Shown: in pieces, positions 1 through 16,422 of the stretch
Layout of the letters: each line of letters begins with the position of its first letter
Position numbering within the stretch: position 1 is the stretch's first letter
Source of the DNA: Ruania alba
Lineage (GTDB): Bacteria; Actinomycetota; Actinomycetes; Actinomycetales; Beutenbergiaceae
Length of the DNA: 64,000 nucleotides
Assembly (NCBI RefSeq): GCF_900105765.1
Contig: NZ_FNTX01000002.1
Coordinates: forward strand, 1,302,001 to 1,366,000
Direction of reading: 5' to 3'
Notes under the pieces: generated by a model
What the model was told of the DNA's origin: nothing
Seen by the model: only the letters and a program-made list of their open reading frames with translations
The model's database searches: none
Position numbers and translations under genes: made by a program

Positions 1-599
1 TCGGATGTGATGGCGAGCGTGGCCACCGTGCCGTCGGCGAGCAGGGACAGGGCTGTGAGGTTGATCGTGTGGTTGCGCAACCTGCGCCCGACCAGATCTG
101 CCACCGCGTCGGCAGGTACGGCCTCCCGGGCGGCGCTCACCTGGTCGGTGTCGGTCTCGCCGTGCTCGTAGTTGTCCCAGGCCTGGGACAACTCGAACAG
201 GCGACGCCCATGGGTCGCCCAGTACTCGGGCTCTTGCCGGCTGCGCGTGTTGTTGTCGTAGTGCGGAAGGCGGGTGACGACCTGGTACGCCGTGATCGGG
301 GAGGTGAGTCCTCGGAGTACCTCGAGCCGCGGGAGTGCATCGAGGATCCCGTCTGGCGTGTTCCGGGACGGGATGAGTCCGCCGTGCACCAGGAGGTCGA
401 GCGAGAGGACGACGGCATCGACGTCCCGGTCGATCTCCCGGAGCCACACGGCAAGCCCGGCTGTGTTCGCGCCCTCGCGGAAGCGCGGCATCAGATGCCG
501 AGGGGGCAGGAGAACGTCGACGCCGCAGCACCGGCCGAACCATTCTGCATAGCCGGCCGTGTTCGGGCGCTCGTCCGGCGGGAGGAGGGCGATGCGCAT
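1..599 (-). CDS. DUF4127 family protein (C-terminus beyond window)
   Basis: The reading frame starts at ATG 599 on the minus strand and is still open at base 1, so only about 199 N-terminal residues are seen. The N-terminus (MRIALLPPDERPNT), the block VVLSLDLLVHGGLIPSR near residues 63-79, and the stretch TRLPHYDNNT followed by EPEYW and GRRLFELS match the DUF4127 pattern of a beta-alpha protein with conserved DxRP and SLDxLxxGGL motifs. No function is established for this family; there is no signal peptide, so it is probably cytoplasmic. It is transcribed away from the secreted propeller protein across the palindrome at 661-684, which suggests joint control. The family call rests on recalled motif patterns; the biochemical role is unknown. 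Confidence 0.8.
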   Translation of the reverse strand, partial: MRIALLPPDERPNTAGYAEWFGRCCGVDVLLPPRHLMPRFREGANTAGLAVWLREIDRDVDAVVLSLDLLVHGGLIPSRNTPDGILDALPRLEVLRGLTSPITAYQVVTRLPHYDNNTRSRQEPEYWATHGRRLFELSQAWDNYEHGETDTDQVSAAREAVPADAVADLVGRRLRNHTINLTALSLLADGTVATLAITS

Positions 600-621
600 G
601 GATGGCCTTCCGAGCTCGGGC

Positions 622-684
622 TTGTGCAGTGTCGGTGGACCACGGTATCTTCGACGAGCCAGATCTGCAACCGATTGCAGATCT
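622..684 (+). promoter_or_regulatory. Promoter and LacI-type operator O1
   Basis: A perfect inverted repeat with 10-bp arms (AGATCTGCAA / TTGCAGATCT, 661-684) contains TGCAACCGATTGCA at 666-679. Upstream is a plausible -35 TTGTGC (622-627) and -10 TATCTT (646-651) with an 18-nt spacer, so the operator would sit just after the -10, where a LacI-family repressor blocks transcription. The same 14-mer recurs at 8248, 10474, 11581 and 12962. It lies between the divergent DUF4127 and secreted propeller genes. Confidence 0.75.
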
Positions 685-739
685 GCGGCTTGTTGAAAAG
701 CGCGCGACGCCGTTGTCCCAGCGCGGAGGAGAAGTGACC

Positions 740-3694
740 ATGACACAGTCCAGAAGGTTGCTGACACGAGCAGCGGGTGTCCTGCTGGCGGGAGTGATGC
801 TTGCCGTGGCGGGCGTCAGTGCACATGCAGCAGGCGATCCGCCGGCTGAGGAGCCCAATCGGCTCACGAACACGAGCTTTGAAGAAGGCGAGGACGCAAC
901 CAGTGCGCCGGGGTGGTCGCCATTGTGGGGGAGGGACGAGCTTGTCTCGTTCTCCGAGGAGCGCGCCAGCGATGGCGTGCGGAGTCTGCACGTTGTCCGG
1001 GAAGACGGGATGCGCACCGGTGGGTTCGTCTCTGATCCGGTGCCAGCCGACGGCGGCGAAACGTATGAGTTCAACTTTGATCAGTATCGCGTGGGCGGCG
1101 CGCTGAGCGTCACGTTCTACTTCGACGACTCCGACGGGAACGTGATCAGCCAGCCGTACGAGATGGTGCGTTCTACGACCGACAGGTGGGAGCGTACGGC
1201 GGTTCGTTTCGAGGCTCCCGAGGGAACAGTCTCGGCACGTCTGCTCTTCTATGCGGTCTCCGGGGCGACGCTCAACACGTTCATCGATGATGTGTGGTTC
1301 GGGCCGGCGAGTGAGGAACCTGAGGAGCCTGAACTGTCTCCTGTCGAGACGATTCTCGCCCAGGATGAGAATCTCGAGTACCTCGGTACTCCCGTGACCA
1401 CTCAGATCCCGAGTCAGGCGGCTCACGGCATCGAGGACGGGCGGCACGTGTCGTATCAGGCGTTCAAGGGCGCGCCGGACACGGGATATCCGGCAACCTT
1501 TGCGGTGACTGATGTGGCCACCGGCGAGCAGGTCCGCACCTGTGAGATCGACGGTGCTGAGCACTCGAGGAACCTCAACATCGCTGATGACGGTCGCGTG
1601 TACTGGGGGACGTACCACGATTCCATGCTGTGGCGCTATGACCCCGCCACGGGCGAGTGCGAGAATCTGGGCCGGATGAGCGACCAGAAGGACTCGACCT
1701 TCGGCATGTCTCCCGGACCTGACGCATCGATGTATATCGGGGCTTACCCCGATGGTCGCCTCCTGCATGTGGACCCGGTGACCGATGAGGTCGAGCTGCT
1801 GCGCGAGATCGATCCGAATGCGGACTACATCCACTCGATCGCTTACCACGAGGAGACTGACACGGTTTATGTCGGCTCCGGCGGGCAAGTCCCTCAAATC
1901 TGGAAGATCACGGACGCCGGACGCGGCGAACAGACGCTGATCGCCGACGAATCCACGGCACCAGGCCTGAACGATGGAGCTACCTTCGTGGGCCGGATGG
2001 ACATCGTCGGTGACCGGATCTTCGCTCAGGTCGGGCTGCGAATGCTCGTCCTGGATCTGGACGGGAACGTCATCCACTGGGACGCCGACCAGACTCGCTA
2101 CTTCTTCGGGCACCACCTCATCGCTGGTGCGGATCCCGGTACCGCGATCTTCTCGACCGCAGGCGGGACATTGGTGGAATACGACATCGCGACCAATTCC
2201 TTCGCGCCAACGAGTATCAGCATCGGTGGCTACCTCTCGAACGGCATCGTTGACGACTCGAGCGGCACGCCTCTTCTCTATGGAACCTCGGCGTCCGGTG
2301 TGTTCGTCGCCGATCTTGAGAGCGAATCGCTGATCTCGGAGAACGCGATCGACTTCGCCCAGCCCACGCTGATCCAGAAGCTCCACACGGGGCCCGGCAA
2401 CACCGTGTGGGCCTCCGGCTACATGGTGGGTCTGGCGCAGGTGGACAAGAGCGGCGCCGATCACGGCCCCACCATGCAGCGCGGTCAGTATGAGTCGGCT
2501 GCGGTGCGCGATGGGAAGCTCTACCTCGGCGCCTACGGGCACGCCAAGCTCGAAGTCCTCGACCCCGAGACATACGATCCCACGGATGGGAGCACGGTCC
2601 CGAGGCTCTTCGATGGCCTGGCCGAGGGGCAGGATCGTCCTTTCGGCATGGCGTATAACCCCGATCGTGACGAGATCTACATGGGCACAGTTGCCATCTA
2701 CGGGCAGACCCAGGGTGGACTTGCGATCTGGGACGGAGCCACTGGCGAACACGAATGGCTGACCTCTGAGATCGGTCAGGACGAGAACATCGTCTCAGTC
2801 GCGTACAACCCCGTCGACGGTCTCGTGTACCTCGGCAGCACCGTCGATGGCGGGCTCGGATCGGACCCGAGCGGCAATACGGCGGGCAAGTTGATCGTGT
2901 TCGATCCGGAGACCCGGAGCGTTGTCACCACGATCGATCCGGCCGGAAGTGAGCGTGAGGGCATCACCGGACTGATGGTCGATCCCGACGGCGTGGTGTG
3001 GGGGGTGGCTGAGGAGGCACTGTTCGCCTACGATCCCGCCACCGGTGAGTCGGAGGTGAGGGGCACCGTGGGCGGTCGCTACCCGGACGGCAGGACCTTC
3101 TGGGCCTACGGCACAGTCTCGATGTCAGATGCGGACGGAAGGATCTACGTCACGGCGGGGAGTCGCTTCAGCGTTCACGATCCCGAGACCGGTGAGACAA
3201 CGCGAATCGCGAACGGGCTCCAGTGGAGCACCGTGGATGAGGACGGTGACGTCTACCTGAGTTCGGGTGCCAACCTGTTCCGGTACAACGTGACTGGTTC
3301 CCAGGAGCCATCGACTTGCAGCGAGACGCTCACCGACCGGGTGAACGGTGGCCTCACCGTTGCCGACGGGGACGTCCTATGCCTCGACGCCGCGCTCGTG
3401 AACGGGGGCGTATCAGTCGAGGTCGGTGGCACGCTGGTCGTCGAGGGGTTGAGTCAGATCCGCGGTGGCCTGACAGCGGTGGATGCTGTGAGTGTGCAGG
3501 TGCGTGACAGTCAGATCCGCGGTGACGTGTCGGTCACTGGCACCGCCGATGAGTTCGTGTTCGCGGGCAACGATGTGCACGGCTCCGTGCAGTGCTCCGA
3601 CAACACCTCCGATCCGGACGATGAGGCCAGTGCCAGCACGATCACCGGCTCGGCCGACGGCCAATGCGCCGGGCTCGCCCTGGGAGGCGGATGA
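740..3694 (+). CDS. Secreted CBM-like / beta-propeller / beta-helix protein (copy 1)
   Basis: 984 residues; start ATG 740 is preceded by GGAGGAG. Residues 1-30 are a signal peptide (twin R, hydrophobic core, AHA-A cleavage) with no lipobox. Residues about 40-195 form a jelly-roll, carbohydrate-binding-like module (NTSFEEG at its head, FIDDVWFGP at its end). About 200-855 is a many-bladed beta-propeller: the motif YxG...LxxYDPxTGE recurs roughly every 45-55 residues. Residues 860-984 are a short right-handed beta-helix with VNGGLTV / SQIRGGLTAV-type rungs and a conserved end (CSDN, DGQCAGL). No catalytic residues are recognisable, so it could be a lyase, hydrolase or binding protein. It is paralogous to the protein at 13021-16422, and the enolase-superfamily gene follows 50 bp downstream. 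Confidence 0.75.
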   Translation: MTQSRRLLTRAAGVLLAGVMLAVAGVSAHAAGDPPAEEPNRLTNTSFEEGEDATSAPGWSPLWGRDELVSFSEERASDGVRSLHVVREDGMRTGGFVSDPVPADGGETYEFNFDQYRVGGALSVTFYFDDSDGNVISQPYEMVRSTTDRWERTAVRFEAPEGTVSARLLFYAVSGATLNTFIDDVWFGPASEEPEEPELSPVETILAQDENLEYLGTPVTTQIPSQAAHGIEDGRHVSYQAFKGAPDTGYPATFAVTDVATGEQVRTCEIDGAEHSRNLNIADDGRVYWGTYHDSMLWRYDPATGECENLGRMSDQKDSTFGMSPGPDASMYIGAYPDGRLLHVDPVTDEVELLREIDPNADYIHSIAYHEETDTVYVGSGGQVPQIWKITDAGRGEQTLIADESTAPGLNDGATFVGRMDIVGDRIFAQVGLRMLVLDLDGNVIHWDADQTRYFFGHHLIAGADPGTAIFSTAGGTLVEYDIATNSFAPTSISIGGYLSNGIVDDSSGTPLLYGTSASGVFVADLESESLISENAIDFAQPTLIQKLHTGPGNTVWASGYMVGLAQVDKSGADHGPTMQRGQYESAAVRDGKLYLGAYGHAKLEVLDPETYDPTDGSTVPRLFDGLAEGQDRPFGMAYNPDRDEIYMGTVAIYGQTQGGLAIWDGATGEHEWLTSEIGQDENIVSVAYNPVDGLVYLGSTVDGGLGSDPSGNTAGKLIVFDPETRSVVTTIDPAGSEREGITGLMVDPDGVVWGVAEEALFAYDPATGESEVRGTVGGRYPDGRTFWAYGTVSMSDADGRIYVTAGSRFSVHDPETGETTRIANGLQWSTVDEDGDVYLSSGANLFRYNVTGSQEPSTCSETLTDRVNGGLTVADGDVLCLDAALVNGGVSVEVGGTLVVEGLSQIRGGLTAVDAVSVQVRDSQIRGDVSVTGTADEFVFAGNDVHGSVQCSDNTSDPDDEASASTITGSADGQCAGLALGGG

Positions 3695-3744: not shown

Positions 3745-5067
3745 ATGGCCGGGACTGACATCCGGGTACTCGACGCAACTGTCGCCTACCGCGACGTGAA
3801 GCTTGAGTCGCCGCTGACGATCAGCGGAGGGTCGATCACGCACTTCACCGTGGCCGAAGTCGATGTGGAGGTCGTGAATCGTTCAGGCGCGCGCGGAACG
3901 GGGCACGGCGAGAGTGTGCTGTCGGTGCCATGGGCCTGGCCGGGAAGCGCCCTTTCCGTCGGAGAACGAGACGCAGTGCTGCGCGGGTTCGTGCGTCACT
4001 ACGCACAGCACGCTGCGAGGCTCGACCCGGCCGATCCGATCGCGATATGGGGCCACCTGGCCACCAGCACTGAGGACAGCCGCGCAGCCCTGCAGGCAGT
4101 TGCGCACGAGCGAGTTCCGGAGCTGGGCATAGCCCTGGCCCTGGGCGCCGTCGACAATGCGCTGCATGATGCGTGGGGCAACGCGGCCGGCCAGAACGTA
4201 TTCGAGATGTACACGGCCGATCATCTGGCCGATGATCTGCGTGCCCATGGTTTGCCCGGCTGCTACCCCGGCGACGGGGTCGAACCTTCGCCGCGGCAGT
4301 CGTTGCCTGTGCAGCACGTCGTCGGCATCTCCGATCCGCTGACCTCCGCGGCAGCAGGGGACGGGTCGACCGCGCTCGCGGACTGGATGGTGCAGGAGGG
4401 TGTCGACCGTCTCAAGGTCAAAGTGGCAGGTGCCGACCCAGCTGTCGATGCCCAGCGGATCTCTGACATCTATCGCATTGCCAGGTCACATGGCTTTTCC
4501 CCGCAACTGGCCGTCGACCCGAACGAAGGTTACCCGGACGCGATCGTCGCGGGAACCATGCTCGACGAGCTCTCCGCTTCCGATCCGGAAGCCGCCGCCA
4601 CCGTGCAGTACCTGGAGCAACCGATCTCGCGCTCAGTGGTCGTCGACCCGGACCAGATGCGGTACCTCTCCGAACAGGTGCCCACCATCATGGACGAGGG
4701 ATTCACGTCCCTCGCGCGACTACCGCAACTTCGCGCAGAGGGATGGTCCGGTGTGGTCATCAAGGCCAGCAAGGGGCAGACACCCGCGGTGATCGCCGCT
4801 GCTGTTGCACGGCACCTCGGACTGTTCGTCACCGTTCAGGACCTCACCGCCACTGGAGGTGCCTATCTGCACTCCGCGCGGATTGCCAGCGTCTTGCGGG
4901 TGAGCGTGCCGCAGCTCGAGTACAACAGCAGGCAGTACGCTCCTGCCGACAATGACGGGCTCCGTCGCATGCTCCCGAAGCTGGCTCACGTGAAGGACGG
5001 CCAGGTGAGGATGGACGGGCTCGACGGAGCGGGGCTCTACGGCGCTACTTCATCCCGGACATCATGA
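3745..5067 (+). CDS. Enolase-superfamily protein (mandelate racemase / muconate lactonizing type)
   Basis: 440 residues, the usual length. The C-terminal barrel carries the superfamily signature: K224-x-K226 (LKVKV), metal ligands D258 (AVDPNEGY), E291 (YLEQPI) and D317/E318 (IMDEGF), and an opposite lysine K340 (VVIKASKG). Lysines on both sides of the site are typical of the muconate-lactonizing/dipeptide-epimerase branch rather than of acid-sugar dehydratases that use a His-Asp dyad. Likely chemistry is proton abstraction alpha to a carboxylate (epimerization, racemization or dehydration); the substrate is unknown. It follows the secreted propeller gene in the same direction and is probably co-transcribed from O1. 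Its last 23 bases overlap the 3' end of the converging permease gene. Confidence 0.85.
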   Translation: MAGTDIRVLDATVAYRDVKLESPLTISGGSITHFTVAEVDVEVVNRSGARGTGHGESVLSVPWAWPGSALSVGERDAVLRGFVRHYAQHAARLDPADPIAIWGHLATSTEDSRAALQAVAHERVPELGIALALGAVDNALHDAWGNAAGQNVFEMYTADHLADDLRAHGLPGCYPGDGVEPSPRQSLPVQHVVGISDPLTSAAAGDGSTALADWMVQEGVDRLKVKVAGADPAVDAQRISDIYRIARSHGFSPQLAVDPNEGYPDAIVAGTMLDELSASDPEAAATVQYLEQPISRSVVVDPDQMRYLSEQVPTIMDEGFTSLARLPQLRAEGWSGVVIKASKGQTPAVIAAAVARHLGLFVTVQDLTATGGAYLHSARIASVLRVSVPQLEYNSRQYAPADNDGLRRMLPKLAHVKDGQVRMDGLDGAGLYGATSSRTS

Positions 5068-5938
5068 CGCCCCGGACGAAGTAGCGCTGCAGCAGGATGA
5101 AGATGATGAGAGTCGGGATGAAGCTGACCACCGCGGCCGCCATCATGGTCGAGAGCGGGACCTGCTGCTCCTGCAGGGTGTTCAGGCCGACCGTCAGCAC
5201 GTAGTTCTCCGGAGACTGCTGCGAGATCATCGGCCACAGGAAGTCGTTCCAGTGCCAGAGGAAGACGAATGTGCCCAGCGTCGCCATGATGGGCTTGGTC
5301 TGCGGCAGCACGATCGACCAATAGATCCGGAACTCGCCGGCACCGTCGATCTTGGCCGCGTCGAGCATCTCGTCCGGGATGCTGTAGATGAATTGCCGCA
5401 TCAGGAACATCGCCTGGGCATTCGCGATCGTTGCCGCGATCATTCCCCACATGGTGTCGAGACCGTTGAGCCCGCCGACGATGAGGTATTGCGGGATGAT
5501 CGTGAGGTGGTAGGGGATCATCAGCATCGCGATGAAGACCCAGAAGATGACCTCTCGTCCCGCGAATCGCTTCTTGGCGAAGGCGTATCCGGCCATGGAC
5601 GCGAACAGCAGCACGATGACCACTGACACGACCGAGTAGATCGCTGAGTTCAACGCCCATTGCGGAATGTTCTGGCTGTTGAGTGCATCTTCGAAGGCAG
5701 CGAGGGAAAGCTCCTCCGGGAACATCGATTCCGGGAGAACGATGGCTTGGCCCGGTTGGAACGCGATGATCACCATGGCGTAGAAGGGGAACGCCGTCAC
5801 CACCGCGACGACGAGGAGCAGCGCGTGCATCGGGACGAGGCGGCGGGCCCGGGTCAGGCGGCGTGACAGTGGCATGGACGCACTCGTGCGAGGCGGTGTG
5901 GGAGCGGGAGCTGGTGAGAGATCACGTGTGACGGACAT
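5045..5938 (-). CDS. CUT1 sugar ABC transporter permease, MalG type
   Basis: 297 residues with six predicted membrane segments and the permease EAA loop (EMLDAAKIDGAGEFRIYWSIVLP). The N-terminal tail is proline-rich and cytoplasmic. This is the second inner-membrane subunit of a binding-protein-dependent sugar importer. Its start codon overlaps the stop of the upstream permease (TGATG), and the order binding protein, MalF-like, MalG-like is the classic CUT1 operon. No ATPase gene is present, so a shared MsmK-type ATPase encoded elsewhere is expected. The tail overlaps the converging enolase-superfamily gene by 23 bp. Confidence 0.95.
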   Translation of the reverse strand: MSVTRDLSPAPAPTPPRTSASMPLSRRLTRARRLVPMHALLLVVAVVTAFPFYAMVIIAFQPGQAIVLPESMFPEELSLAAFEDALNSQNIPQWALNSAIYSVVSVVIVLLFASMAGYAFAKKRFAGREVIFWVFIAMLMIPYHLTIIPQYLIVGGLNGLDTMWGMIAATIANAQAMFLMRQFIYSIPDEMLDAAKIDGAGEFRIYWSIVLPQTKPIMATLGTFVFLWHWNDFLWPMISQQSPENYVLTVGLNTLQEQQVPLSTMMAAAVVSFIPTLIIFILLQRYFVRGVMMSGMK

Positions 5939-6876
5939 CAGTCGTCCCTCCCGACCAGTCGGCGTTGGATGAGTGAGAAGACCAGGGCGATGATCAGTAG
6001 GACGACGCCCACTGCGCTGGCGTAGCCGAAGTCGAAGTACCCGAATCCCTGGTCATAGAGCATGAAGGTGAGCGTGTAGCTCGCCCGTACGGGGCCGCCG
6101 CCGGTCATCACGAAGATGGTGTCGAATGTCTGGAACGACTTGACGGTCTCGAGCACCAGCACGAAGAAGAGAGCGGGCCGAAGGGACGGCAGCGTGATAC
6201 GCGTGAAACGTTGCCACCCGTTCGCACCATCGATCGATGCCGCCTCGTAGTACTCCTGCGGGATCGCCAGCATGCCGGCCAGCAGGATCAGCATGTTGTA
6301 GCCGAAGCTCATCCACGCACTCACGAGCGCCAGCGCCGGGAGCACCCAGAATCCGTCCTGCAGCCAGCTGATCGGCTGGAGTCCCACGGCTCTGACGAGG
6401 CCGTTGATCGGGCCCGAGTCGGAGAAGATCCACACGAAGATGAGCCCGGAGAGCACCGGTGATGTCACGGCCGGAAGGAAGAAGATGGAGCGGTAGAAGG
6501 ACATGCCGCGCATCACGCGGTTGCACAGTTGAGCGATCGCGAGGGAGAGCACCACTGTCAGCGGCATGGCGATCGCTGCGTATTTCAGCGTGACCCAGAG
6601 CGCCCCCCAGAAGTTGGGGTCGTCGAAGAGCCTGGCGTAGTGCTCGAGCCCGACGAAGGTGAGCGCGCCTGAGAGACTGTACTCGCCGAAGCTGAGACCG
6701 ATCCCGAAGATCGCCGGCAGGATGCGAAACACCATGAAGAACACGACGTACGGCGCAATGAAGATGTACGCCGCGATCGCGCTCTTCGACCTCCACCACC
6801 GTCGCTTGCGGGTCGGCGGCTGCCGTGTGTCCTGCGCCGTCTGGTCTGCCGGTGCGGATCCCGTGGCTACTGCCAT
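5938..6876 (-). CDS. CUT1 sugar ABC transporter permease, MalF type
   Basis: 312 residues from ATG 6876, which is preceded by AAAGGGA; an in-frame ATG further upstream would add an unlikely tail and lacks a ribosome site. Six membrane segments and the EAA motif (EYYEAASIDGANGWQRFTRITLP) identify the first permease of a CUT1 carbohydrate importer. It pairs with the MalG-type gene, which it overlaps by one base, and with the binding protein 76 bp upstream. Co-regulation through O2 is inferred from the operon structure. Confidence 0.95.
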   Translation of the reverse strand: MAVATGSAPADQTAQDTRQPPTRKRRWWRSKSAIAAYIFIAPYVVFFMVFRILPAIFGIGLSFGEYSLSGALTFVGLEHYARLFDDPNFWGALWVTLKYAAIAMPLTVVLSLAIAQLCNRVMRGMSFYRSIFFLPAVTSPVLSGLIFVWIFSDSGPINGLVRAVGLQPISWLQDGFWVLPALALVSAWMSFGYNMLILLAGMLAIPQEYYEAASIDGANGWQRFTRITLPSLRPALFFVLVLETVKSFQTFDTIFVMTGGGPVRASYTLTFMLYDQGFGYFDFGYASAVGVVLLIIALVFSLIQRRLVGRDD

Positions 6877-6952: not shown

Positions 6953-8200
6953 TCAGAGGGCCCCGTTCACCTCTTCGGCGGCTGCGTCCAGTGCTTCCTG
7001 CGGATCGGCACCTTCGAGCAGCACACTCTGGATGTGCGGGCGGATCATGTCGATGATCTCCCGAGCCTTGGGGTGCTGGACGCCGGTGCGGAGGTACTCG
7101 AGGTAGTCGGACCCGCCGGCGATCTGCGGATCATCGGCGAACAGGCCGTCGAGGTCCGTGCGCGGTGAGAGATATCCCGACTCGCTGAGGAAGTCCTCGA
7201 GGAACTCCGGCTCGCCGAGGAACCGAACCCAAGCCTGAGCGGCTTCCGGGGACTCGGTGGTGTTGAACACCGACCACGCACCCACTGAGCCGGAGGCGAC
7301 CTGTTCGACGCCGCTCATCGGTGGGACCGTCTCGATGACGTCGGGGTCGACGAACTCACGAGTCGCCGCCAGGTTCGCCCCCATCACGTAGCCGAGGTTC
7401 CCTTGCCCGGCCTCGGTCTGCTCGAAGGGCTCAGCGATGCTCAACGGTTCCTGCGGAACCCACTCGTTGTCCACCATCTCCTGGATGAACTCCAGCGCCT
7501 GCAGGCCCTCCGGGCCGTTGAACGTCGCCTCGGTCATGTCCTCGTTGAGGACCTCACCGCCTGCCTGCCAGAGGTACATGTAGAAGGTGTGGTTCAGCGT
7601 GGAGACGCCGTTGTACTCCGTGGCGTAGTAGCCGGCTTCCCGGATGGCGGGTGCGGCGTCACGGAACTCGTCCCACGTGGTCGGGCAGGCGGCGACACCT
7701 GCCTCCTCTAGCACGTCGGTGTTGCAGTAGGACGTCTGCAGCTGCATCAGCATGGGTTGTCCGTAGAGGGTGTCGTCCCAGGTCATGGCCTCGAGTGAGG
7801 AGTCGTAGAACTGGTCCCAGTCCTCGCGCAGGTCGTCCATCGGGAGCAGCAGGTCCTGGTCGGCATACTTCGGTACGAAGTCGGGATTGAAGTACACGAC
7901 ATCGGGTGCGTTGTTGCCCGTGATCGCCGTGACGAGCGACTCCTCACGCCCCTGCCAGGCCTGCATCACGACCTCGACCTCGACATTCGGGTACTCCTCG
8001 TTGAACTCGTCCACGTACGGCTGCCACCAGGACGCCTCGGTGATCGTCGAGAACGGGTACGTCCAGAACGTCACGGTGCCGGAGACGTCCTCCGGCGCGG
8101 CGTTCTCCTGTTCGGGAGACTCGTCCTCGCCACTGCATGCCGCGAGCAGCAGTGCGCTCGTAACGGCCGCGCTCACGGCGACCTTGGCCTTGTGCTTCAT
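6953..8200 (-). CDS. Sugar ABC transporter substrate-binding lipoprotein (family 1)
   Basis: 415 residues starting at ATG 8200 with GGAGGG immediately upstream. The N-terminus is a lipoprotein signal with lipobox LLAAC, followed by an acidic linker (SGEDESPEQENAAPED). The body has the extracellular solute-binding family 1 pattern (VTFWTYPFS, EEYPNVEVEVV, TGNNAPDVVYFNPD, NTDVLEEAG, and FLGEPEFL near the C-terminus). It should capture an oligo- or monosaccharide for the two permeases encoded downstream. The promoter and operator O2 at 8248-8294 head this operon, so the transported sugar is likely the inducer or a product of the secreted propeller proteins' action. That link is inference. Confidence 0.93.
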   Translation of the reverse strand: MKHKAKVAVSAAVTSALLLAACSGEDESPEQENAAPEDVSGTVTFWTYPFSTITEASWWQPYVDEFNEEYPNVEVEVVMQAWQGREESLVTAITGNNAPDVVYFNPDFVPKYADQDLLLPMDDLREDWDQFYDSSLEAMTWDDTLYGQPMLMQLQTSYCNTDVLEEAGVAACPTTWDEFRDAAPAIREAGYYATEYNGVSTLNHTFYMYLWQAGGEVLNEDMTEATFNGPEGLQALEFIQEMVDNEWVPQEPLSIAEPFEQTEAGQGNLGYVMGANLAATREFVDPDVIETVPPMSGVEQVASGSVGAWSVFNTTESPEAAQAWVRFLGEPEFLEDFLSESGYLSPRTDLDGLFADDPQIAGGSDYLEYLRTGVQHPKAREIIDMIRPHIQSVLLEGADPQEALDAAAEEVNGAL

Positions 8201-8247: not shown

Positions 8248-8294
8248 TGCAATCGGTTGCACGCAACGTAACGATCGGCAGGATGCCCTGTCAA
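8248..8294 (-). promoter_or_regulatory. Promoter with LacI-type operator O2
   Basis: Reading the minus strand, -35 TTGACA (8294-8289), an 18-nt spacer and -10 TACGTT (8270-8265) form a good sigma-70-type promoter. The 14-mer TGCAACCGATTGCA (8261-8248) lies directly after the -10, covering the expected transcription start. It is the clearest promoter/operator arrangement of the five sites and controls the CUT1 importer operon. Confidence 0.8.
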
Positions 8295-9417: not shown

Positions 9418-10442
9418 GCCGACACCTCCACCTGAGTGCCGGTATCGGCAGCCCGGTAGATCGCATCCAGCAGCTGGACGGTGCGGGCAGCCTCCGGTGC
9501 ATCGATGGCGCATGGGCGTCCCTCGCGCAGCGCAGCCAGGACCTCCTGCCACATGGTGACGTGCCCGGCGATGCCGATGGCGGCCGGATCGGCGGATCCG
9601 CTGGTGACCGACGCTGATGAGGCGGGACGTGGGACTCCGGGAACGTCCCAGCGCAGGATCTCCCCTTGTCCGAGCTCGACGGTGCCGCGCGAGGTGTGCA
9701 GGGTCAGGGTCGCGGGCGAGCCCGGAGGTGTGGCCGTCGAGGTACTGATGAGGCCCAGGCCGCCGGACGCCAACCTGAGGGTCGCCACGGTGGTGTCCTC
9801 GGCTGGCATGTCATGGCCCAGAGTGGCCTGCTGCGCGGTCACGGTTTCCACCGGGCCGCACAGCCAGCGCAGCAGGTCGGCGTTGTGGACGCCCTGATTC
9901 ATCAGGGATCCGCCGGCGGGCATCGTGGTCCGCCAGGGGGCTGCGTGGTAGTAGTCGTCGTCACGGCTCCAGTGGACCTGAGTAACGGCGAGCCGGATCT
10001 CACCCAGCTCGCCGGAATCGAGCAGCTGCTTGACGGCGGCGACCTCGGGCTCGAACCGGCGTTGGGCGACCATCGCGACGAGGACCCCGTGCTCGCGTGC
10101 CGCGGCGACGATCCGGTCCGCATCGGCAGCCGTGGTGGCGAGAGGCTTCTCGACCACGGCGTTCTTGCCGGCGGCGATAGCGGCGAGCGTGAGCGAGGCG
10201 TGGGTCTGCGACGGCGTGCAGATCGCGACGACATCGACATCCGGATGGTCGATCACCTCGTCGGCACTGCACTGACGTGCCGCCGGCCATCCGCACCCGG
10301 AGATCACCTCCGGGTTGCCCCCGCTGTAGGCGACCAGTGTGGTGGCCGCCACCTGCTGCAACGCCCGCGCGTGGGTGGTGCCGATACTCCCGGCGCCGAC
10401 GATTCCGACGCCGATCGATTCTGCCATCGTGTGTTGCCGCAT
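9414..10442 (-). CDS. Gfo/Idh/MocA family oxidoreductase
   Basis: 342 residues; ATG 10442 has AGGGTGAG upstream, though ATG 10427 is an alternative. The dinucleotide site is canonical (GIVGAGSIGTTHA), followed by VVEKPLA and, in the C-terminal domain, GGSLMNQGVHNADLLRWL with the conserved His. It belongs to the glucose-fructose oxidoreductase/inositol dehydrogenase superfamily and probably acts on a sugar or sugar derivative from the same locus. The first gene of a two-gene unit, it has operator O3 32 bp upstream of its start. The two tandem oxidoreductases may catalyse successive or opposite oxidation steps, for example a redox-neutral epimerization; this is speculation. Confidence 0.9.
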   Translation of the reverse strand: MRQHTMAESIGVGIVGAGSIGTTHARALQQVAATTLVAYSGGNPEVISGCGWPAARQCSADEVIDHPDVDVVAICTPSQTHASLTLAAIAAGKNAVVEKPLATTAADADRIVAAAREHGVLVAMVAQRRFEPEVAAVKQLLDSGELGEIRLAVTQVHWSRDDDYYHAAPWRTTMPAGGSLMNQGVHNADLLRWLCGPVETVTAQQATLGHDMPAEDTTVATLRLASGGLGLISTSTATPPGSPATLTLHTSRGTVELGQGEILRWDVPGVPRPASSASVTSGSADPAAIGIAGHVTMWQEVLAALREGRPCAIDAPEAARTVQLLDAIYRAADTGTQVEVSA

Positions 10443-10473: not shown

Positions 10474-10487
10474 TGCAACCGATTGCA
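10474..10487 (-). promoter_or_regulatory. LacI-type operator O3
   Basis: This is an exact copy of TGCAACCGATTGCA, 32 bp upstream of the first of the two Gfo/Idh/MocA genes. No convincing -35/-10 pair could be assigned by eye. It is identical to the four other sites in the locus. Confidence 0.75.
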
Positions 10488-10529: not shown

Positions 10530-11534
10530 TCAGCTGAGCCGATCGTAATTCTCGGGTGTCACCTCAGCACGGAGTGTGCCCTCCCGCAGGAAGCTCTCCA
10601 CCTCGGCGACCACGGTCGTACCTTGCGCGAACCGTGCCTGCACGGTGCCGCCGGCGACGTGTGGTGTCAGAATCGCATTGTCCAAGCCGAAGAACGGGCT
10701 CTCCACCGGAAGCGGCTCGGTGGTGAACACGTCGAGGCCCACCTTGAGTCGACCGGCCGTGACCTCGGCGAGCAGTGCCTCCTCGTCGGTCACCTGGGCG
10801 CGTGCGGTATTGGTGACGATCGCGCCGTCGGGGAGCAGCGCGAGTTGTGGGGCGCCAAGCATTCCGACGGTCTCGGCCGTGACGGGAGCATGGATCGAGA
10901 GGACGTCGCTCGTCGCGCACAGTTCGTCCAGCTCGCACAGTTCGACGCCGAGCTGGCGGGCGTCGTCGGCCGAGCAGTACGGGTCGAATGCGCGCACGGA
11001 CGTGGCGCCGAGTCCCTGGACCAGGGAGGCGAAATGCCGGCCGGCGCGGCTGAGGGAGACGATGCCGATGCGCTGCGCGGCAATGCTCTGACCCAGGACG
11101 CCCTGGCCGCCCTCGCGCCAGTCGCGGGTGCGCTGAAGAGCCCGATCGTGCCACACGAGATTGCGCAGATGCGCGAGTGTGAAGGTGAGTGCCAGCTCGG
11201 CCACCGGAAGCGCCATCGCATCGGCGCCACCCTGTGCCAGGCGAAGCCGGTCGCCCAGGCATTCCGCAGGGAACAGCTTGCGCACCGATCCGGCGCTGTG
11301 CACCGCCAGGCGAAGCCGTGAACCAGCCAGGACGGCCGGATCGAAGGGCTCGGTGCTCCATGAGGTGAGCAGCACATCGAATTCGTCGCCGACGTCTGTG
11401 GGTACGGCAACCTTCCCGGAAGTCTCGGTGCCGAAGACGACCTCCCCGAGGTCGTGGAGCTTCGCCTGGGTCTGCTCATCGTAGAGGCGGGCGAACTGAT
11501 CCGCGGTGATCGCGACGAAGATGCGGGCGCTCAT
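10530..11534 (-). CDS. D-2-hydroxyacid dehydrogenase family protein with altered glycine motif
   Basis: 334 residues from ATG 11534, preceded by AGGAGC. The catalytic Arg (TNTARAQVTDEEAL), Glu (LDVFTTEPLP) and His (LTPHVAGGT) of the D-isomer-specific 2-hydroxyacid dehydrogenase family are all present. The Rossmann loop reads IGIVSLSRAGR: S160 and S162 stand where GxGxxG has its first two glycines, while the third, G165, is kept. It probably reduces or oxidizes a 2-keto/2-hydroxy acid generated in this locus. It is divergent from the epimerase gene, with O4 between them. Confidence 0.88.
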   Translation of the reverse strand: MSARIFVAITADQFARLYDEQTQAKLHDLGEVVFGTETSGKVAVPTDVGDEFDVLLTSWSTEPFDPAVLAGSRLRLAVHSAGSVRKLFPAECLGDRLRLAQGGADAMALPVAELALTFTLAHLRNLVWHDRALQRTRDWREGGQGVLGQSIAAQRIGIVSLSRAGRHFASLVQGLGATSVRAFDPYCSADDARQLGVELCELDELCATSDVLSIHAPVTAETVGMLGAPQLALLPDGAIVTNTARAQVTDEEALLAEVTAGRLKVGLDVFTTEPLPVESPFFGLDNAILTPHVAGGTVQARFAQGTTVVAEVESFLREGTLRAEVTPENYDRLS

Positions 11535-11580: not shown

Positions 11581-11594
11581 TGCAATCGGTTGCA
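11581..11594. promoter_or_regulatory. LacI-type operator O4 (divergent)
   Basis: An exact TGCAATCGGTTGCA (the complement of the other sites' TGCAACCGATTGCA) lies 34 bp upstream of the epimerase start and 47 bp upstream of the dehydrogenase start. One site can therefore control both divergent genes. Confidence 0.75.
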
Positions 11595-11627: not shown

Positions 11628-12908
11628 ATGACGACCCTCGAGAGTGCCGCCGTCGACGCCCGGGACCAGCTGGAGCAGGTGGTGCTGCCGTTCTGGCTGG
11701 CACACGGGATCGACCACGAGCGCGGGGGATTCCATACGTGCTTCGACAACCGCGGCCGCACCCAGGTCTCCGGCGACAAGTTCACCTGGTCGCAGGGTCG
11801 ATTCGTGTGGATGCTGGCGCGGGCTGCTTCCCTGACCCGCGCAGGTTTGCTCCGTCCAGTTGACGGCTTCGACGCTGATGCGTTGATGGCGTGCGCTACC
11901 CGCGGCGCCGACTTCCTCGAGAAATACGCCCTTCGCCCCGACGGCACCTGCTCGTTCGCGCTCGTGCGCGACGGATCCGCCGAAGCGGCGGGCCACCCCG
12001 CGAGAAGCGTCTATGCCGATCTGTTTGTCGCGATGGGATTCGCAGAGATCGCGCGGCAGGGCGGGCCGCAGCGGTGGCTGGAACCGGTGCGCCTCATCGT
12101 CGACCGCGCTCGGGAGGACATCCACCAGCGGGTTGCGCCCACGCCGCCGTACACGATTCCGGAGGGGCACCGAGCCTTCGGGCCCCACCTGATCCTCCTG
12201 AATGCGCTCCTCGTCCTGAGTGAGGCTGAGCGGAGTCTGGAGGTGCCGATCTCACGCCGGGAGGCGCTCGCCTCCGAACTCGATGCGGTGATGTCATTTC
12301 ACGACGGCGGACACGGCTTTCGGGAGATGCCTCCGTTGGGGAGGGCTCGCTCCGGCGCACCCGGCGAGGGTTCGGTTGGCCCGTCCGGTTCGGGCCTGGT
12401 CGCCACGCATCGCGTACCGGGCCACGCGCTGGAAGCGATGTGGATCGCCCTCGAGGCGATGGATCTGCTCGGCGATGCGACACATCGGGAGACTGCCCTG
12501 GCGAGTATCGCCCCGCTGTGCGAACTCGGGTGGGATGGTGAGCACGGCGGGCTGTTCCGGTACGTCGACGAGGCCGGCGGCCCGCCCACCGGTGTGGCCG
12601 GGGTGAGCGATTATGAACGTCTGGTGCAGACCACCTGGGACACCAAGCTGTGGTGGGTGCACACCGAAGCAGCAGCCGTCGCCGCCACGGCGGCCTGGCG
12701 GTACGACCGCCCGGAGGCTGCTGCGTGGTTCGACCGGATCTGGCGCTACACCATGAGCACGTTCCCTGGCGGGGATGAGGGTGAGGAGTGGGTGCAGATT
12801 CGCAATCGGGATGGATCTCCGCGCGATGAGGTCGTGGCACTTCCGGTGAAGGATCCGTTCCACATCACGCGGAACCTGATGCAGATTGTGGAGCTCGCGC
12901 CTTGGTGA
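11628..12908 (+). CDS. AGE family epimerase/isomerase
   Basis: 426 residues, close to the usual 390-420 of the N-acylglucosamine 2-epimerase family ((alpha/alpha)6 barrel). Family hallmarks are WSQGRFVWMLARA (residues about 48-60), HGGLFRYVDEAGG, WDTKLWWVHTEAAA (a catalytic His region) and KDPFHITRNLMQ near the C-terminus. Enzymes of this fold epimerize or isomerize N-acetylglucosamine, mannose, cellobiose or sulfoquinovose-type sugars. Which sugar is used here cannot be read from the sequence. The start ATG 11628 lies 34 bp after O4, and no strong ribosome site is seen. Confidence 0.88.
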   Translation: MTTLESAAVDARDQLEQVVLPFWLAHGIDHERGGFHTCFDNRGRTQVSGDKFTWSQGRFVWMLARAASLTRAGLLRPVDGFDADALMACATRGADFLEKYALRPDGTCSFALVRDGSAEAAGHPARSVYADLFVAMGFAEIARQGGPQRWLEPVRLIVDRAREDIHQRVAPTPPYTIPEGHRAFGPHLILLNALLVLSEAERSLEVPISRREALASELDAVMSFHDGGHGFREMPPLGRARSGAPGEGSVGPSGSGLVATHRVPGHALEAMWIALEAMDLLGDATHRETALASIAPLCELGWDGEHGGLFRYVDEAGGPPTGVAGVSDYERLVQTTWDTKLWWVHTEAAAVAATAAWRYDRPEAAAWFDRIWRYTMSTFPGGDEGEEWVQIRNRDGSPRDEVVALPVKDPFHITRNLMQIVELAPW

Positions 12909-12916: not shown

Positions 12917-12975
12917 TTGCCACAGTGCATAGGTGGTGTGTAAGGTCGTCGCTCAATTCGTTGCAACCGATTGCA
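12917..12975 (+). promoter_or_regulatory. Promoter and LacI-type operator O5
   Basis: A candidate -35 TTGCCA (12917-12922), an 18-nt spacer and -10 TAAGGT (12941-12946) precede TGCAACCGATTGCA at 12962-12975. The next gene, the second secreted propeller protein, starts at 13021 after GAGGAGA. The layout repeats that of O1 and O2. Confidence 0.72.
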
Positions 12976-13020
12976 CAGGCCTCCACGATCACTCGACCGC
13001 CGGCCCGAGGAGACATCACG

Positions 13021-16000
13021 ATGCACCCGTTCCGCCGACTCCCCGCTGCGCTCGCCGTCGGAGCGCTGCTCTCGACTACGGTCGCTGCGGTCGCGCACGC
13101 AGACACCGCTTCAGTCGCAGCCGAGGACCCATCGAACCTGCTGGCGAACCACTCGTTCGAGGACGGCTCCGAAGTGGGGAGTCTGCCGGGCTGGTCGCCG
13201 ATCTGGCCGGGGTCGGTGGAGTACTTCGAACTGGACGAGACGCGGGCGAGCGAGGGTGCTCGGAGCCTGCGGGTGCTGGATGAGCGCACCGACGGTGGGG
13301 GTGGCATGGTGGCCGACGCGGTGCCGGTCGAGGCTGGCGCCGTCTATGAGCTGAGCTTCGACATGTTCCTGGTCTCGGGTGTGCTGAACCCGTTGGTGTA
13401 CTTCGACGATGCCGACGGCCAGGTGGTGAGTCAGCCGATGAACTCGGTCACCACGACGGCCGGCCAGTGGGAGCAGGTGACGCTCACGTTCGAGGTGCCG
13501 GCGGGTGCAGTGGCCGCGCGGGTGGCCCCGTACTCCTCGATCGGTGGCGTGGTCGACGCCTCGATCGACAACGTCTCCTTCGCGCTCGGGACCAGTACCC
13601 CGGACGAACCGCGCGACCCGGACAATCCGGACAACGCCGTCGTCAATCACAGCTTCGAGCACGGCACCGGCGTGACCGACCTGCCCGGCTGGGCGCCGTG
13701 GTCATCGACCTCGACGAACCATCTCGAGGTCGCCACCGAGACCGCCAGTGACGGTGACCGCAGCCTGCACGTGCTCGACGATCGAGCCGATCAGGGTGCC
13801 GGTCTGCTCTCCTCCGACATGCCCGTCGAGCCGGGAGAGGTCTACGAGCTGAGCTTCGACCACTACACGACCTCGGGCGTCCTTCAGCCCTACGTCTACT
13901 TCGACGACGCCGACGGACAGCGGATCACCTCCTCCTATGAGATCGTCCGGACGCCCGTCGGTGAGTGGAGCCGCGCCGGGTTCGAGTACACCGTGCCCAG
14001 CGGCGCCGCCGTGGCTCGGGTGATGATCTACAGCTCGATCGGCGGACTGGTCGACGCCTATGTCGACGACCTCTACTTCGGCCCCACCTCCGGCACTGTC
14101 CCGACGCAGCCGTCGCTGCCGGAGGAGATCACCTCACAGGACTCCGACATCTCCTACCTGGGCACCCCGGTGATGGGCCAGGTGGTCACCAATACCGAGC
14201 TCGGCATGGAGAACGGCGTGTCCATGTCCTACGGCGTCTACTCCGGTGTCGCCGGGACCGAGACCCCCGGCACCCTCGTGGTCGCGGAGACCATGACGGG
14301 GGAGATCGTCCGCACGTTCCCACTCGATGGGGTGAGCGGTTCGCGGTACATCGCCAGGTCCACGGACGGCAAGATCTACTTCGTCACCACCGGGACGAAC
14401 AGCCTGTGGGTCTACGACCCGGAGATCGCCGACGTGCGGCGCATCGGCCTGATCAACCCCGACGACCCGAACACCACCGTCGGCTGGTCGCTCACCGAGG
14501 GCGCCAACGGGTCGATGTACATCGGCACGTACTCTCAGGGCCGGCTCTACCACTACGACCCCGCTGACGACTCGATCACCGACATGGGCCAGATCGACCC
14601 CACCCAGGGGTATATCCACTCCCTCGCCTACGACCATGAGCGGGGCAACCTCTACGTCGGCGCCGGCGGGAACAAGGGGCAGATCTACAAGGTGGAGCCG
14701 GACGGCACCACCACGGCCCTGCTCAGTGAGGAGCGCACCCCGGGTGCGACAGAGCACTCGTTCGTCACCTCGTTCACGTTCTCCGGCGATCGCCTCTTCG
14801 CCCGGACCGAGCGGAGCCAGCTCATCGTGATCACCGCCGACGACGAAATCGAGTACTGGCAGGGCGGGGACAAGGAGGCATTCGGTTACCACGTCAGCGA
14901 GCGCCCGGACGCCCCGGGGCGGTACATCTTCACCTTTTCGGGGACCTTCTGGGAGTACGACTCCGCCACGGCGACCACCAGTGACCTCGGGATCGCGGTG
15001 AACGGTTCTCTCAACGACTCGACCTGGACGCAACTGGACGACCCCGCGTGGCCGGGCTGGACCATGCTCGCGGCGACGTCCGGTGGCGTGATCCGGCTCA
15101 ACCTGGAGACGGGGACCTCGGACGCGGACCCGGTCGACTTCCTGAACCCGGTGCGGATCCAGCAGATCTTCAACGGGCCGGACTCGATGTACGCCTCGGG
15201 GTACATGCGTGGCCTGACGCCCTTCGACTCGATGACCGGTGAGGCGGGGGAGACGCACCAGTCCGGCCAGTACGAGGCCGCCGCGGTGCGCGACGACACA
15301 CTGCTGCTCGCCGCCTACGGCAACGCCCGACTGCTGGAGTACGACCCCGCCGCCGGAGACTCGCCGCGAGAGATCTTCACCCTGGTGGACGAGCTCCAGG
15401 ACCGGCCGCGGATGGACTACGACCCGGGCACGGACCGCGTCTTCATGGGCACGGTCGCCCATTACGGACACAACCAGGGTGCACTCGCTGTGCATGACTT
15501 CGCGACCGGCGAGACCGAGGTGTTCACCGACGAGATCGTCACCGACCAGTCGATCATCAGCGTTCTGCACCACGACGGGCTCGTATATCTCGGGACCACC
15601 CTCGACGGAGCCCTGGATGCGCCGGACTCCGGTCAGACCGACGCCCACTTCATCGTCTGGGATCCGGACACGGAGCAAGTCGTGCAGGACATCGTCCCGG
15701 TGGCCGGCGACGAAGGTGTGACAGGTCTGATCGTCGGACCTGACGGGTTGATCTGGGGTGTGTCGGAGGACACGGTCTTCCGGTACGATCCGCAGTCCCA
15801 GGAGATGGCCTCCTCCGAGGCAATGCTCGGGCACCGGTATGGCGGCGGCACGGTGTGGACCTACGCGCAATTGGCCGTGGGAGCGGACGGGAACGTCTAC
15901 GGCACGAACCGGTCCTCGCTGTTCCGCATCGATCCAGACACGATGGAGTACAGCCTGGTGGTGAACACGCCGGTGGACAACCTCACGGTGGACGGCGCGG

Positions 16001-16422
16001 GGAACCTGTACTTCTCGACCTCGGTCTATCTCTTCAGGTACACAGTTCCGGTCGAGACGGCCTGCGACGAGACGCACACCGGCCTGGTCGCGAGCGGGCT
16101 CGTCGTCCCTGCCGACACGGTGACCTGCCTCGAGGCCTCGCAGGTGAACGGCCCACTCGACGTGGAGCCGGGTGGGTCTCTCCTGGCGAGCGATGTGCAG
16201 ATCAACGGCGGCGTGACGTCCGACGGCGCTGACACGATACAGATCCGGGACAGCGCCGTGCACGGCCGCACCGCGATCACGGGAACGTCAGGAACAGTGG
16301 TCCTGGCAGGGAACACCGTCCGCGGGCCGCTGATCTGTTCCGACAACGACACGCCTGCCGACGATGAAGGCATCACCAACACAGTTCGTGGGCCCGCGAC
16401 GGGACAGTGCGCGAACCTGTAG
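13021..16422 (+). CDS. Secreted double-CBM-like / beta-propeller / beta-helix protein (copy 2)
   Basis: 1133 residues from ATG 13021. Signal peptide 1-27 (cleavage AHA-D). Two tandem jelly-roll modules follow, about 39-190 and 205-355, each opening N(H)SFE(D/H)G and containing YFDDADGQ; copy 1 of this family has only one. About 363-1010 is the beta-propeller with the same YxG...LxxYDP repeat, and 1013-1133 a beta-helix (VNGPLDV, VQINGGVTSDG) ending CSDN...TGQCANL as in copy 1. No anchor motif, lipobox or recognised catalytic site is present. Control by O5 places it in the same regulon. A role in binding or degrading an extracellular glycan is inferred. Confidence 0.75.
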   Translation: MHPFRRLPAALAVGALLSTTVAAVAHADTASVAAEDPSNLLANHSFEDGSEVGSLPGWSPIWPGSVEYFELDETRASEGARSLRVLDERTDGGGGMVADAVPVEAGAVYELSFDMFLVSGVLNPLVYFDDADGQVVSQPMNSVTTTAGQWEQVTLTFEVPAGAVAARVAPYSSIGGVVDASIDNVSFALGTSTPDEPRDPDNPDNAVVNHSFEHGTGVTDLPGWAPWSSTSTNHLEVATETASDGDRSLHVLDDRADQGAGLLSSDMPVEPGEVYELSFDHYTTSGVLQPYVYFDDADGQRITSSYEIVRTPVGEWSRAGFEYTVPSGAAVARVMIYSSIGGLVDAYVDDLYFGPTSGTVPTQPSLPEEITSQDSDISYLGTPVMGQVVTNTELGMENGVSMSYGVYSGVAGTETPGTLVVAETMTGEIVRTFPLDGVSGSRYIARSTDGKIYFVTTGTNSLWVYDPEIADVRRIGLINPDDPNTTVGWSLTEGANGSMYIGTYSQGRLYHYDPADDSITDMGQIDPTQGYIHSLAYDHERGNLYVGAGGNKGQIYKVEPDGTTTALLSEERTPGATEHSFVTSFTFSGDRLFARTERSQLIVITADDEIEYWQGGDKEAFGYHVSERPDAPGRYIFTFSGTFWEYDSATATTSDLGIAVNGSLNDSTWTQLDDPAWPGWTMLAATSGGVIRLNLETGTSDADPVDFLNPVRIQQIFNGPDSMYASGYMRGLTPFDSMTGEAGETHQSGQYEAAAVRDDTLLLAAYGNARLLEYDPAAGDSPREIFTLVDELQDRPRMDYDPGTDRVFMGTVAHYGHNQGALAVHDFATGETEVFTDEIVTDQSIISVLHHDGLVYLGTTLDGALDAPDSGQTDAHFIVWDPDTEQVVQDIVPVAGDEGVTGLIVGPDGLIWGVSEDTVFRYDPQSQEMASSEAMLGHRYGGGTVWTYAQLAVGADGNVYGTNRSSLFRIDPDTMEYSLVVNTPVDNLTVDGAGNLYFSTSVYLFRYTVPVETACDETHTGLVASGLVVPADTVTCLEASQVNGPLDVEPGGSLLASDVQINGGVTSDGADTIQIRDSAVHGRTAITGTSGTVVLAGNTVRGPLICSDNDTPADDEGITNTVRGPATGQCANL

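Follow-up and report, generated by a model that had tools for sequence, protein, structure and literature searches.

A conserved LacI-type regulon of Ruania alba encodes a family of secreted propeller proteins that may cut a uronic acid-containing polysaccharide

We analysed a 64,000-nucleotide stretch of the Ruania alba genome (hereafter the window; G000:C2:1302001-1366000, in a genome of 4.83 Mb on two contigs), the left end of which encodes a DUF4127 protein, two large secreted proteins with probable propeller folds (PropA and PropB), a CUT1 importer and a series of intracellular enzymes, in five transcription units preceded by copies of one 14-mer. We conclude that these genes belong to a regulon that is real, conserved and larger than the stretch first described, and that the propeller proteins are a secreted family without a named enzyme family but with a strict three-residue signature. 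The explanation we favour, to which we give an even chance, is a LacI-controlled regulon for an extracellular polysaccharide of uronic acid, probably with N-acetylhexosamine, in which the propellers would hold the polymer and cut it, probably by β-elimination. We found no description of the regulon or of the propeller family in the literature searched, the scope of which excluded most subscription journals.

A first-pass annotation of the window had reported five exact copies of a 14-mer before five units within 12.3 kb. All five copies of TGCAACCGATTGCA were found before the units named (Table 1), each a few tens of bases from a start codon (start codons of the window units were assigned by eye), and two of the five are placed between divergent genes. 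Allowing up to two mismatches gave ten matches in the window, which are the same five near-palindromic sites read on both strands; 0.30 matches were expected from shuffled sequences. A scan of the whole genome gave eight exact copies and ten matches with at most one mismatch, and a reversed-pattern control gave none. All exact and one-mismatch copies fall in two clusters of related genes, with no scatter over unrelated places: six exact copies and the variant TGCAACCGCTTGCA in the window cluster, and two exact copies and one further variant in cluster two, 0.3 Mb away. In its near-palindromic form, TGCAACCG[AC]TTGCA, the operator occurs in nine places in these two clusters; matches with two mismatches also lie between the divergent genes for PropC and PropD in cluster two.

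The extent first proposed holds for the five sites, but the regulon itself continues into the left flank of the window and into cluster two. The left flank (L011) holds the rest of the DUF4127 gene and genes for an alpha/beta hydrolase, a LacI protein, a third Gfo/Idh protein, and NAD-epimerase-like, DHDPS-family, NagB-like and NagA-like proteins. Three of its units have operator sites of their own: the third Gfo/Idh gene, the NAD-epimerase-like gene followed by the DHDPS-family gene, and the NagB-like gene followed by the NagA-like gene. The only Pfam match of the NAD-epimerase-like protein was NmrA, below threshold, and the alpha/beta hydrolase scored 30.5 bits against the GCE (CE15 glucuronoyl esterase) family, for which the cut-off is 27, over only 48 residues. 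Between Gfo1 and the LacI gene (L011:14435-15120) we noticed by eye nucleotidyltransferase-like and HEPN-like small genes resembling an MNT/HEPN toxin-antitoxin pair. Cluster two (L014) encodes an SGNH hydrolase, Gfo4, Gfo5, five propeller paralogues and a peptide-type ATP-binding cassette (ABC) importer, so that PropA and PropB are two of seven paralogues in the genome, six intact and one frameshifted. The last (G000:C2, L014:10548-13074, minus strand) appears as two overlapping frames, either a true frameshift or a sequencing error. The binding protein and first permease of the peptide-type importer (L014:15672-18650, plus strand) are read through in a single long frame, and the stretch that joins them looks unlikely; G023 (L062) encodes the two in separate frames, and the end of the L014 binding-protein gene may be out of frame.

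A cognate LacI gene had been predicted to the left of the window, and it lies there, 1.8 kb away, at C2:1299178-1300191 (L011:15178-16191). In relatives, the linked LacI gene co-occurs with the operator. The recognition helix reads S-T-V-S-R-A-F in each of 17 predicted LacI proteins at 53-100% identity, a set that includes the reference gene, and two more distant LacI proteins (L113, L115) differ in it. The shared helix fits a single repressor lineage reading one operator. Sugar regulons that combine a LacI-family repressor with a CUT1 importer are of a known kind, and the R. alba set shares with them a near-palindromic operator with a central CG, a linked repressor, an importer and enzymes; it differs in that its secreted enzyme candidates belong to no named family and in having two loci and seven paralogues.

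We searched for the operator and the propellers in 149 relatives and in sets drawn from the class and the phylum; the absence of propellers from genomes of these sets is provisional, with at most seven first candidates scored per genome for the relatives and at most three for the class and phylum sets. The operator pattern TGCAACCGMTTGCA was found in 11 of the 149 relatives (58 sites; 7 for the reversed control). A full-length propeller alignment matched at least 17 relatives at 1e-10, three of them (G021, G056, G085) only in the C-terminal repeat module, and the propeller domain proper was present in at least 14. The pattern occurs in 10 of the 14 relatives with a propeller-domain match versus one of the 135 in which no match was found (G019, one site). 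Within the genus, seven of eight genomes, R. alba included, have both, and G001 has neither. Propellers were found in at least 26 of 394 genomes of the class, 20 of them from one other family, and in at least 3 of 396 genomes of the phylum, R. alba included. The operator is present in 12 of the 21 genomes with propellers that were scanned from the class set, 20 belonging to the same other family and one to a third (49 sites; control 8).

A homologue of the reference gene set has its projected start within -150 to +350 nucleotides of 89 of the 93 sites examined, in 20 genomes; leaving out the nine sites of R. alba itself, the figure is 80 of 84. In all, 107 sites were found, and 14 stand outside this count (five in G007, three in G333, two in G342 and one each in G019, G234, G245 and G318). 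The four sites with no nearby homologue are in L100, L101, L103 and L104, and some of the homologies counted are within broad families at low identity (for example, 29% for Gfo3 in L083). Gene order is reshuffled among genomes and the set itself persists; the divergent DUF4127/PropA arrangement around an operator is repeated in G002 (L050:13575). In G265, of another family, nearly the whole set lies within about 28 kb, without NagA, Gfo1, SGNH and the peptide importer, and the smallest version seen (loci of G017 and G020) consists of LacI, NagB-like and Gfo-pair genes. As judged by sequence comparison, then, the operator and the gene set travel together across two families of Actinomycetes. 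In one relative (G003), a 2403-residue frame with alkaline phosphatase and calcineurin-like domains lies between two operator sites (L103:8936-16147).

PropA and PropB carry export signals, as judged by eye, and align with each other at 41%. We modelled the PropA domain (Table 1) with AlphaFold from a 16-row alignment of the two window proteins and relatives. The model is all-beta, with 54 strands of at least three residues, a mean predicted local distance difference test (pLDDT) score of 84.4 and a predicted template modelling (pTM) score of 0.82. Its 54 strands are near the 56 of two seven-bladed propellers, and a double seven-bladed structure, 1nr0, is among its fold matches; the domain is probably a pair of propellers. 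The first-pass annotation had described giant propeller/beta-helix proteins; the model makes the propeller probable, and any beta-helix would amount at most to a C-terminal repeat module of about 120 residues. This module is also found without a propeller: a long protein in L046, with CBM96 and F5/8 type C domains, carries it, and it is thus mobile. The best 50 of 1976 Foldseek matches were to tandem propellers, namely LRP6, 1nr0, Gemin5, small-subunit processome and doublet-microtubule proteins, and the BT4663 periplasmic domain. No query TM-score exceeded 0.44 and the root-mean-square deviations were large, as if the two halves were angled differently; a viral fold library returned nothing useful among the 50 matches listed.

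Searches with sequence profiles assigned the propellers to no known non-glycan family, and Pfam gave the propeller domain only generic repeat and propeller models. Whole PropA had three Pfam matches, all below cut-off; its trimmed domain matched DUF6923 and Kelch_6 just above cut-off, and PropB matched CBM_4_9 and PQQ_2 above cut-off. The 16 alignment rows matched only repeat or generic propeller models (DUF6923 in 13 rows, PQQ_2 in 10), and NCBIfam gave no match for PropA at 0.01 or for PropC at 1e-12. Against PDB sequences, the propeller profile gave 39 matches with E values no higher than 1, headed by propellers of the PQQ and sensor types (7dxn, 1.9e-08; 4a2l, 3.2e-07).

To survey conserved residues we aligned 88 domain sequences, keeping only those that span 560 or more of the 647 positions of the profile; with the query, this gave 63 rows below 85% identity. 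Six residues are invariant in all 63 (Gly172, Pro201, Tyr392, Gln424, Arg426 and Gly452), of which the only polar ones are Tyr392, Gln424 and Arg426; residue 376 is Gln or Glu in 62 rows, and no His, Asp or Glu is invariant. The modelled secondary structure places Tyr392 in a b-c loop, and Gln424-Arg426 where the inner strand of the following blade begins. The usual propeller layout would put these two elements on the same face, so that the three residues are predicted to share one face of a propeller. Such a set, which has Tyr, Gln and Arg but neither a carboxylate nor a His that is invariant, would suit a mechanism that neutralises the charge of a uronate and abstracts a proton from it better than acid-base hydrolysis; in this the propellers look more like lyases than like hydrolases.

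The published account of FoRham1, a PL42 lyase acting on L-Rha-alpha-1,4-GlcA, describes an active site on one side of a seven-bladed propeller, with β-elimination next to the uronate and Arg and Tyr at the carboxylate, and a His-His-Asp triad shared by PL24, PL25 and PL42 (PMC10951650). The R. alba propellers likewise have an invariant Tyr and Arg and may share a propeller fold with these ulvan lyases and FoRham1; they differ in probably having two propellers in one domain and in lacking the triad, there being no invariant His among the 63 rows, and no member of the three families is named among the 39 PDB sequences matched. A weak match of the propeller profile to a PL22 oligogalacturonate lyase (3pe7, E 0.024, positions 314-430) raised the question of kinship with PL22. 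We rejected it, since the match is not significant and is weaker than the PQQ-type and sensor propellers in the same list; PL22 has a His and metal site, which has no invariant counterpart in the R. alba propellers. GH74-like tandem-propeller hydrolases have a conserved pair of catalytic carboxylates. That the propellers are a new glycoside hydrolase family, with a cleft between two propellers as in GH74, is unlikely: the tandem architecture agrees with the model and most aligned rows (67 of 89) carry Asp at residue 425, but the carboxylate pair is absent, no Asp or Glu being invariant, and none of the best 50 fold matches is named a hydrolase.

A stronger alternative, if still rather improbable, accepts the regulon as described and takes the propellers for secreted glycan-binding or capture proteins that feed the importer, the depolymerases being PL8 lyases encoded elsewhere. 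It draws on the fold matches, which include the heparin-sensing periplasmic domain of BT4663, a tandem-propeller sensor, on the carbohydrate-binding domains of PropB, and on six PL8 N-domain matches in the R. alba genome (one of them partial), five in regions that also hold sulfatases, five in all. Yet Tyr, Gln and Arg persist in 63 of 63 rows although the paralogues have diverged, a constancy that binders of varied ligands would not obviously need; the R. alba PL8 genes lie away from operator sites; and G318 has a PropA-like protein behind an operator with no PL8 match at 1e-10. Cleavage of a glycan by the propellers is the reading we consider most likely, and cleavage by elimination a reasoned guess: we infer a depolymerase family not yet described, probably of lyases. 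The first-pass annotation, which had found no known glycoside hydrolase or lyase in the set, had suggested the propellers as the missing catalysts. The negative holds among the scanned regulon genes of the R. alba genome (Pfam), and the propellers stand as candidate catalysts; a PL8 gene downstream of an operator in G004 and the six PL8 matches in R. alba mean that they need not be the organism's only depolymerases.

The glycan-related role proposed at first stands, and the glycan can be narrowed. In G004 (L102), a pair of operator copies adjoins a gene for a solute-binding protein, 2 kb downstream of which a PL8 lyase is encoded on the same strand; NagB-like and GCE_fung genes lie on the other side. 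In G003 and G007 the operator lies between NagB-like and glucuronoyl-esterase-like genes (Pfam was checked for G003 only); the GCE scores of the L102 and L103 genes are 100.8 and 95.6 bits. In G318, the PropA relative behind the operator (73%) is followed by LacI-like and glucuronate isomerase (UxaC) genes. A sulfatase-like gene that contains a masked stretch, named by eye from C-x-P-S-R, adjoins a site in G342, on the side away from the genes the site precedes, and operator-free propellers lie near a PL8 gene in G350 and near a sulfatase gene in G166. Four of five PL8 regions examined in R. alba (L117, L118, L119, L121) contain the five sulfatases, with importer genes and no operator site; the PL8 gene of L121 is in two frames. 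We found no GH88 match in the R. alba genome at 1e-10, and across 14 operator genomes PL8 occurs in 13 and GH88 in 3.

These genes near the operator in single relatives, PL8, glucuronoyl-esterase-like and UxaC, point to a uronate, as do the nearest solved relatives of Gfo3 and Gfo4 (below); an AGE protein nearest to N-acetylglucosamine (GlcNAc) 2-epimerases and the NagB-like and NagA-like genes point to a hexosamine. The substrate thus probably contains uronic acid and N-acetylhexosamine, and the evidence favours a polymer of the two, glycosaminoglycan-like and teichuronic-acid-like types both fitting. That the polymer resembles teichuronic acid more than a glycosaminoglycan, being a polysaccharide of bacterial cell walls or capsules that contains amino-uronic acids, is a minority view in our assessment: it agrees with the closeness of Gfo3 and Gfo4 to 3q2k and 3q2i and with DegT aminotransferases near propellers or operator sites in some relatives, but PL8, sulfatase and glucuronoyl-esterase-like genes point instead to sulfated or plain glucuronate polymers. 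In other families, operator-free propeller genes (L085, L086, L087, L089, L093) lie near DegT-like aminotransferases and DHDPS-like and amidohydrolase-like proteins, most named by eye, and on account of these neighbours such clusters may serve other glycans. We also considered a sialidase reading, prompted by AGE, DHDPS-, NagA- and NagB-like proteins together, and set it aside; no sialidase is among the 16 Pfam families listed for the propellers, in which a single Arg is invariant.

Among the intracellular enzymes, Gfo3 has 3q2k as its best solved relative (4.2e-46) and Gfo4 has 3q2i (1.1e-50), followed by 8tdi, a glucuronide-3-dehydrogenase (4.5e-28). We take 3q2k and 3q2i to be WlbA, acting on UDP-N-acetylglucosaminuronic acid (UDP-GlcNAcA). 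Gfo3 and Gfo4, and only these two, are closest by sequence to WlbA/WbpB-type and glucuronide 3-dehydrogenases. WbpB oxidises C3 of UDP-GlcNAcA (PMC10622841). Unlike the WlbA/WbpB type, the R. alba Gfo proteins belong to a catabolic regulon, several per genome and in pairs. The NagB-like protein shares with the NagB glucosamine-6-phosphate deaminase its Pfam family and most of the motif around G-H-I-A-F-N-E-P. The deaminase active-site motif is D-G-H, with Asp; here Asn replaces that Asp before G-H, giving N-G-H in 9 of 9 rows (8 distinct genes, one row being the reference gene re-predicted), and another NagB-family protein of the R. alba genome (L117:15604-16389) keeps the Asp.

The enolase-superfamily protein conserves K-x-K, D-P-N-E, E-Q and K-A-[SA]-K. 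The muconate-lactonizing enzyme (MLE) subgroup of this superfamily is marked by K-x-K, by metal ligands and by a Lys across the barrel, and the protein shows this pattern of K-x-K and second Lys; a sugar-acid dehydratase is for that reason not favoured. Its profile matched only 2p88 among PDB sequences at 1e-5, and a model from four sequences (pLDDT 80.1, pTM 0.85) gave fold matches from mixed subgroups, including dipeptide epimerases and muconate-lactonizing enzymes. The list is headed by 4dye, a putative sugar isomerase, and has a talarate dehydratase at rank 35, which leaves the dehydratase reading some probability. DUF4127 proteins were found in 16 of 42 genomes searched, with three copies in R. 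alba, and no paper naming DUF4127 was found within the same literature scope. The region L122 (G000:C2:2158001-2173000) encodes two more DUF4127 proteins, with CUT1-like permeases nearby and also a protein that by eye is FAD-dependent oxidoreductase-like.

We propose the following scheme. The secreted double propellers would hold the polymer with carbohydrate-binding modules and then cut it, most likely by β-elimination, for which the invariant Tyr, Arg and Gln would act together from a single face of one of the propellers. The products would enter through the CUT1 importer and, for cluster two, the peptide-type importer, and an imported oligosaccharide would probably be the inducer. Inside the cell, esterase-like proteins may strip acyl groups, and pairs of Gfo/Idh/MocA proteins may oxidise the uronosyl unit at C3, upon which the glycosidic bond would be lost by elimination; Gfo3 and Gfo4 resemble a UDP-GlcNAcA-type 3-dehydrogenase, and the Gfo pairs would take the role of GH88. 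The AGE, NagB-like and NagA-like proteins would handle the amino sugar, and the NAD-epimerase-like, enolase-superfamily, DHDPS-family and 2-hydroxyacid dehydrogenase proteins the acid. That all the novelties in this scheme hold together, namely a new lyase family without a conserved His (Tyr, Arg, Gln), a GH88-independent route of C3 oxidation and elimination by Gfo pairs, and the Asn-for-Asp NagB-like protein and DUF4127 as new steps, we regard as possible but doubtful.

Several observations weigh against the explanation we favour. Among the best 50 of the 1976 fold matches, no entry carries the name of a lyase or hydrolase, all being sensor domains or tandem propellers of a generic kind; we infer the activity of every family member from sequence and model, and the nearness of Tyr, Gln and Arg from strand order only. 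The best NCBIfam model for Gfo3 and Gfo4 is inositol 2-dehydrogenase, far below its cut-off, and the NagB-like protein has Asn at the expected deaminase Asp. The R. alba PL8 genes are not at operator sites, and PL8 was seen near an operator in one genome only (L102). In several operator genomes the loci examined lack the NagA, DHDPS, NAD-epimerase, enolase, DUF4127 or importer genes, so the route varies between genomes, and the operator is absent from 4 of 14 propeller-bearing relatives and from 9 of 21 such genomes of the class set, so the propellers are not tied to this regulator.

Pfam confirmed the gene list of the first-pass annotation, with matches in the window to DUF4127, MR_MLE_C, BPD_transp_1 (twice), SBP_bac_1, two Gfo/Idh/MocA proteins, 2-Hacid_dh_C and GlcNAc_2-epim (Table 1). 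A PhoX-type phosphatase gene with no operator before it adjoins the cluster (window positions 16527-18599, minus strand), and a 91% identical one adjoins the G002 cluster (L051).

Table 1. Operators, genes and signature codons of the regulon in the window, numbered from its first nucleotide
Feature	Position	Strand	Basis
DUF4127 protein, N-terminal part	1..599	-	Gene runs left of the window to C2:1301121; PF13552, E 2.6e-109 over whole gene
Operator TGCAACCGATTGCA between divergent DUF4127 and PropA	666..679	+	Exact match; DUF4127 start near 599, PropA start 740
PropA, secreted: N-terminal part, probable double propeller (1361-3316), C-terminal repeat module	740..3694	+	Model, Pfam
PropA codon, invariant Tyr (domain residue 392)	2534..2536	+	Tyr in 63/63 non-redundant rows
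PropA codons, invariant Gln-x-Arg (domain residues 424, 426)	2630..2638	+	63/63 non-redundant rows
Enolase-superfamily protein, muconate-lactonizing-enzyme-like	3745..5067	+	MR_MLE_C; conserved motifs; fold search
CUT1 importer permease	5045..5938	-	BPD_transp_1
CUT1 importer permease	5938..6876	-	BPD_transp_1; start by eye
CUT1 solute-binding protein	6953..8200	-	SBP_bac_1, E 4.3e-37; start by eye
Operator preceding CUT1 solute-binding protein	8248..8261	-	Exact match; start codon near 8200
Gfo2, Gfo/Idh/MocA oxidoreductase	8428..9417	-	Pfam; start by eye
Gfo3, Gfo/Idh/MocA oxidoreductase	9414..10442	-	Pfam; nearest solved relatives 3q2k, 3q2i
Operator preceding Gfo3-Gfo2 pair	10474..10487	+	Exact match; start near 10427 or 10442
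2-Hydroxyacid dehydrogenase family protein	10530..11534	-	2-Hacid_dh_C, E 1.5e-43; start by eye
Operator between divergent 2-hydroxyacid dehydrogenase and AGE epimerase	11581..11594	-	Exact match; starts near 11534, 11628
AGE-family epimerase	11628..12908	+	GlcNAc_2-epim (Pfam); nearest solved relatives GlcNAc 2-epimerases
Operator preceding PropB	12962..12975	+	Exact match; start 13021
PropB, secreted: CBM_4_9 domains, probable double propeller (14137-16059), C-terminal repeat module	13021..16422	+	CBM_4_9, 78.7 bits; PQQ_2, 30.2 bits (cut-off 27.6)

Our analysis describes a sugar-catabolic regulon of ordinary logic, the key enzymes of which appear undescribed. It provides a defined set with a conserved operator and repressor, which offer a way to find the inducer. 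It also provides a family of secreted proteins, with no fewer than 63 non-redundant members in the loci examined, which share three invariant polar residues and match only generic repeat models in Pfam. With no GH88 match at 1e-10 in 11 of the 14 operator genomes, nearly all of which have PL8, it also raises the question of how unsaturated or uronic oligosaccharides are opened in these organisms. If the propellers do cut the glycan, they would constitute a new enzyme family, and DUF4127 would acquire a functional context, for which we know of no precedent.

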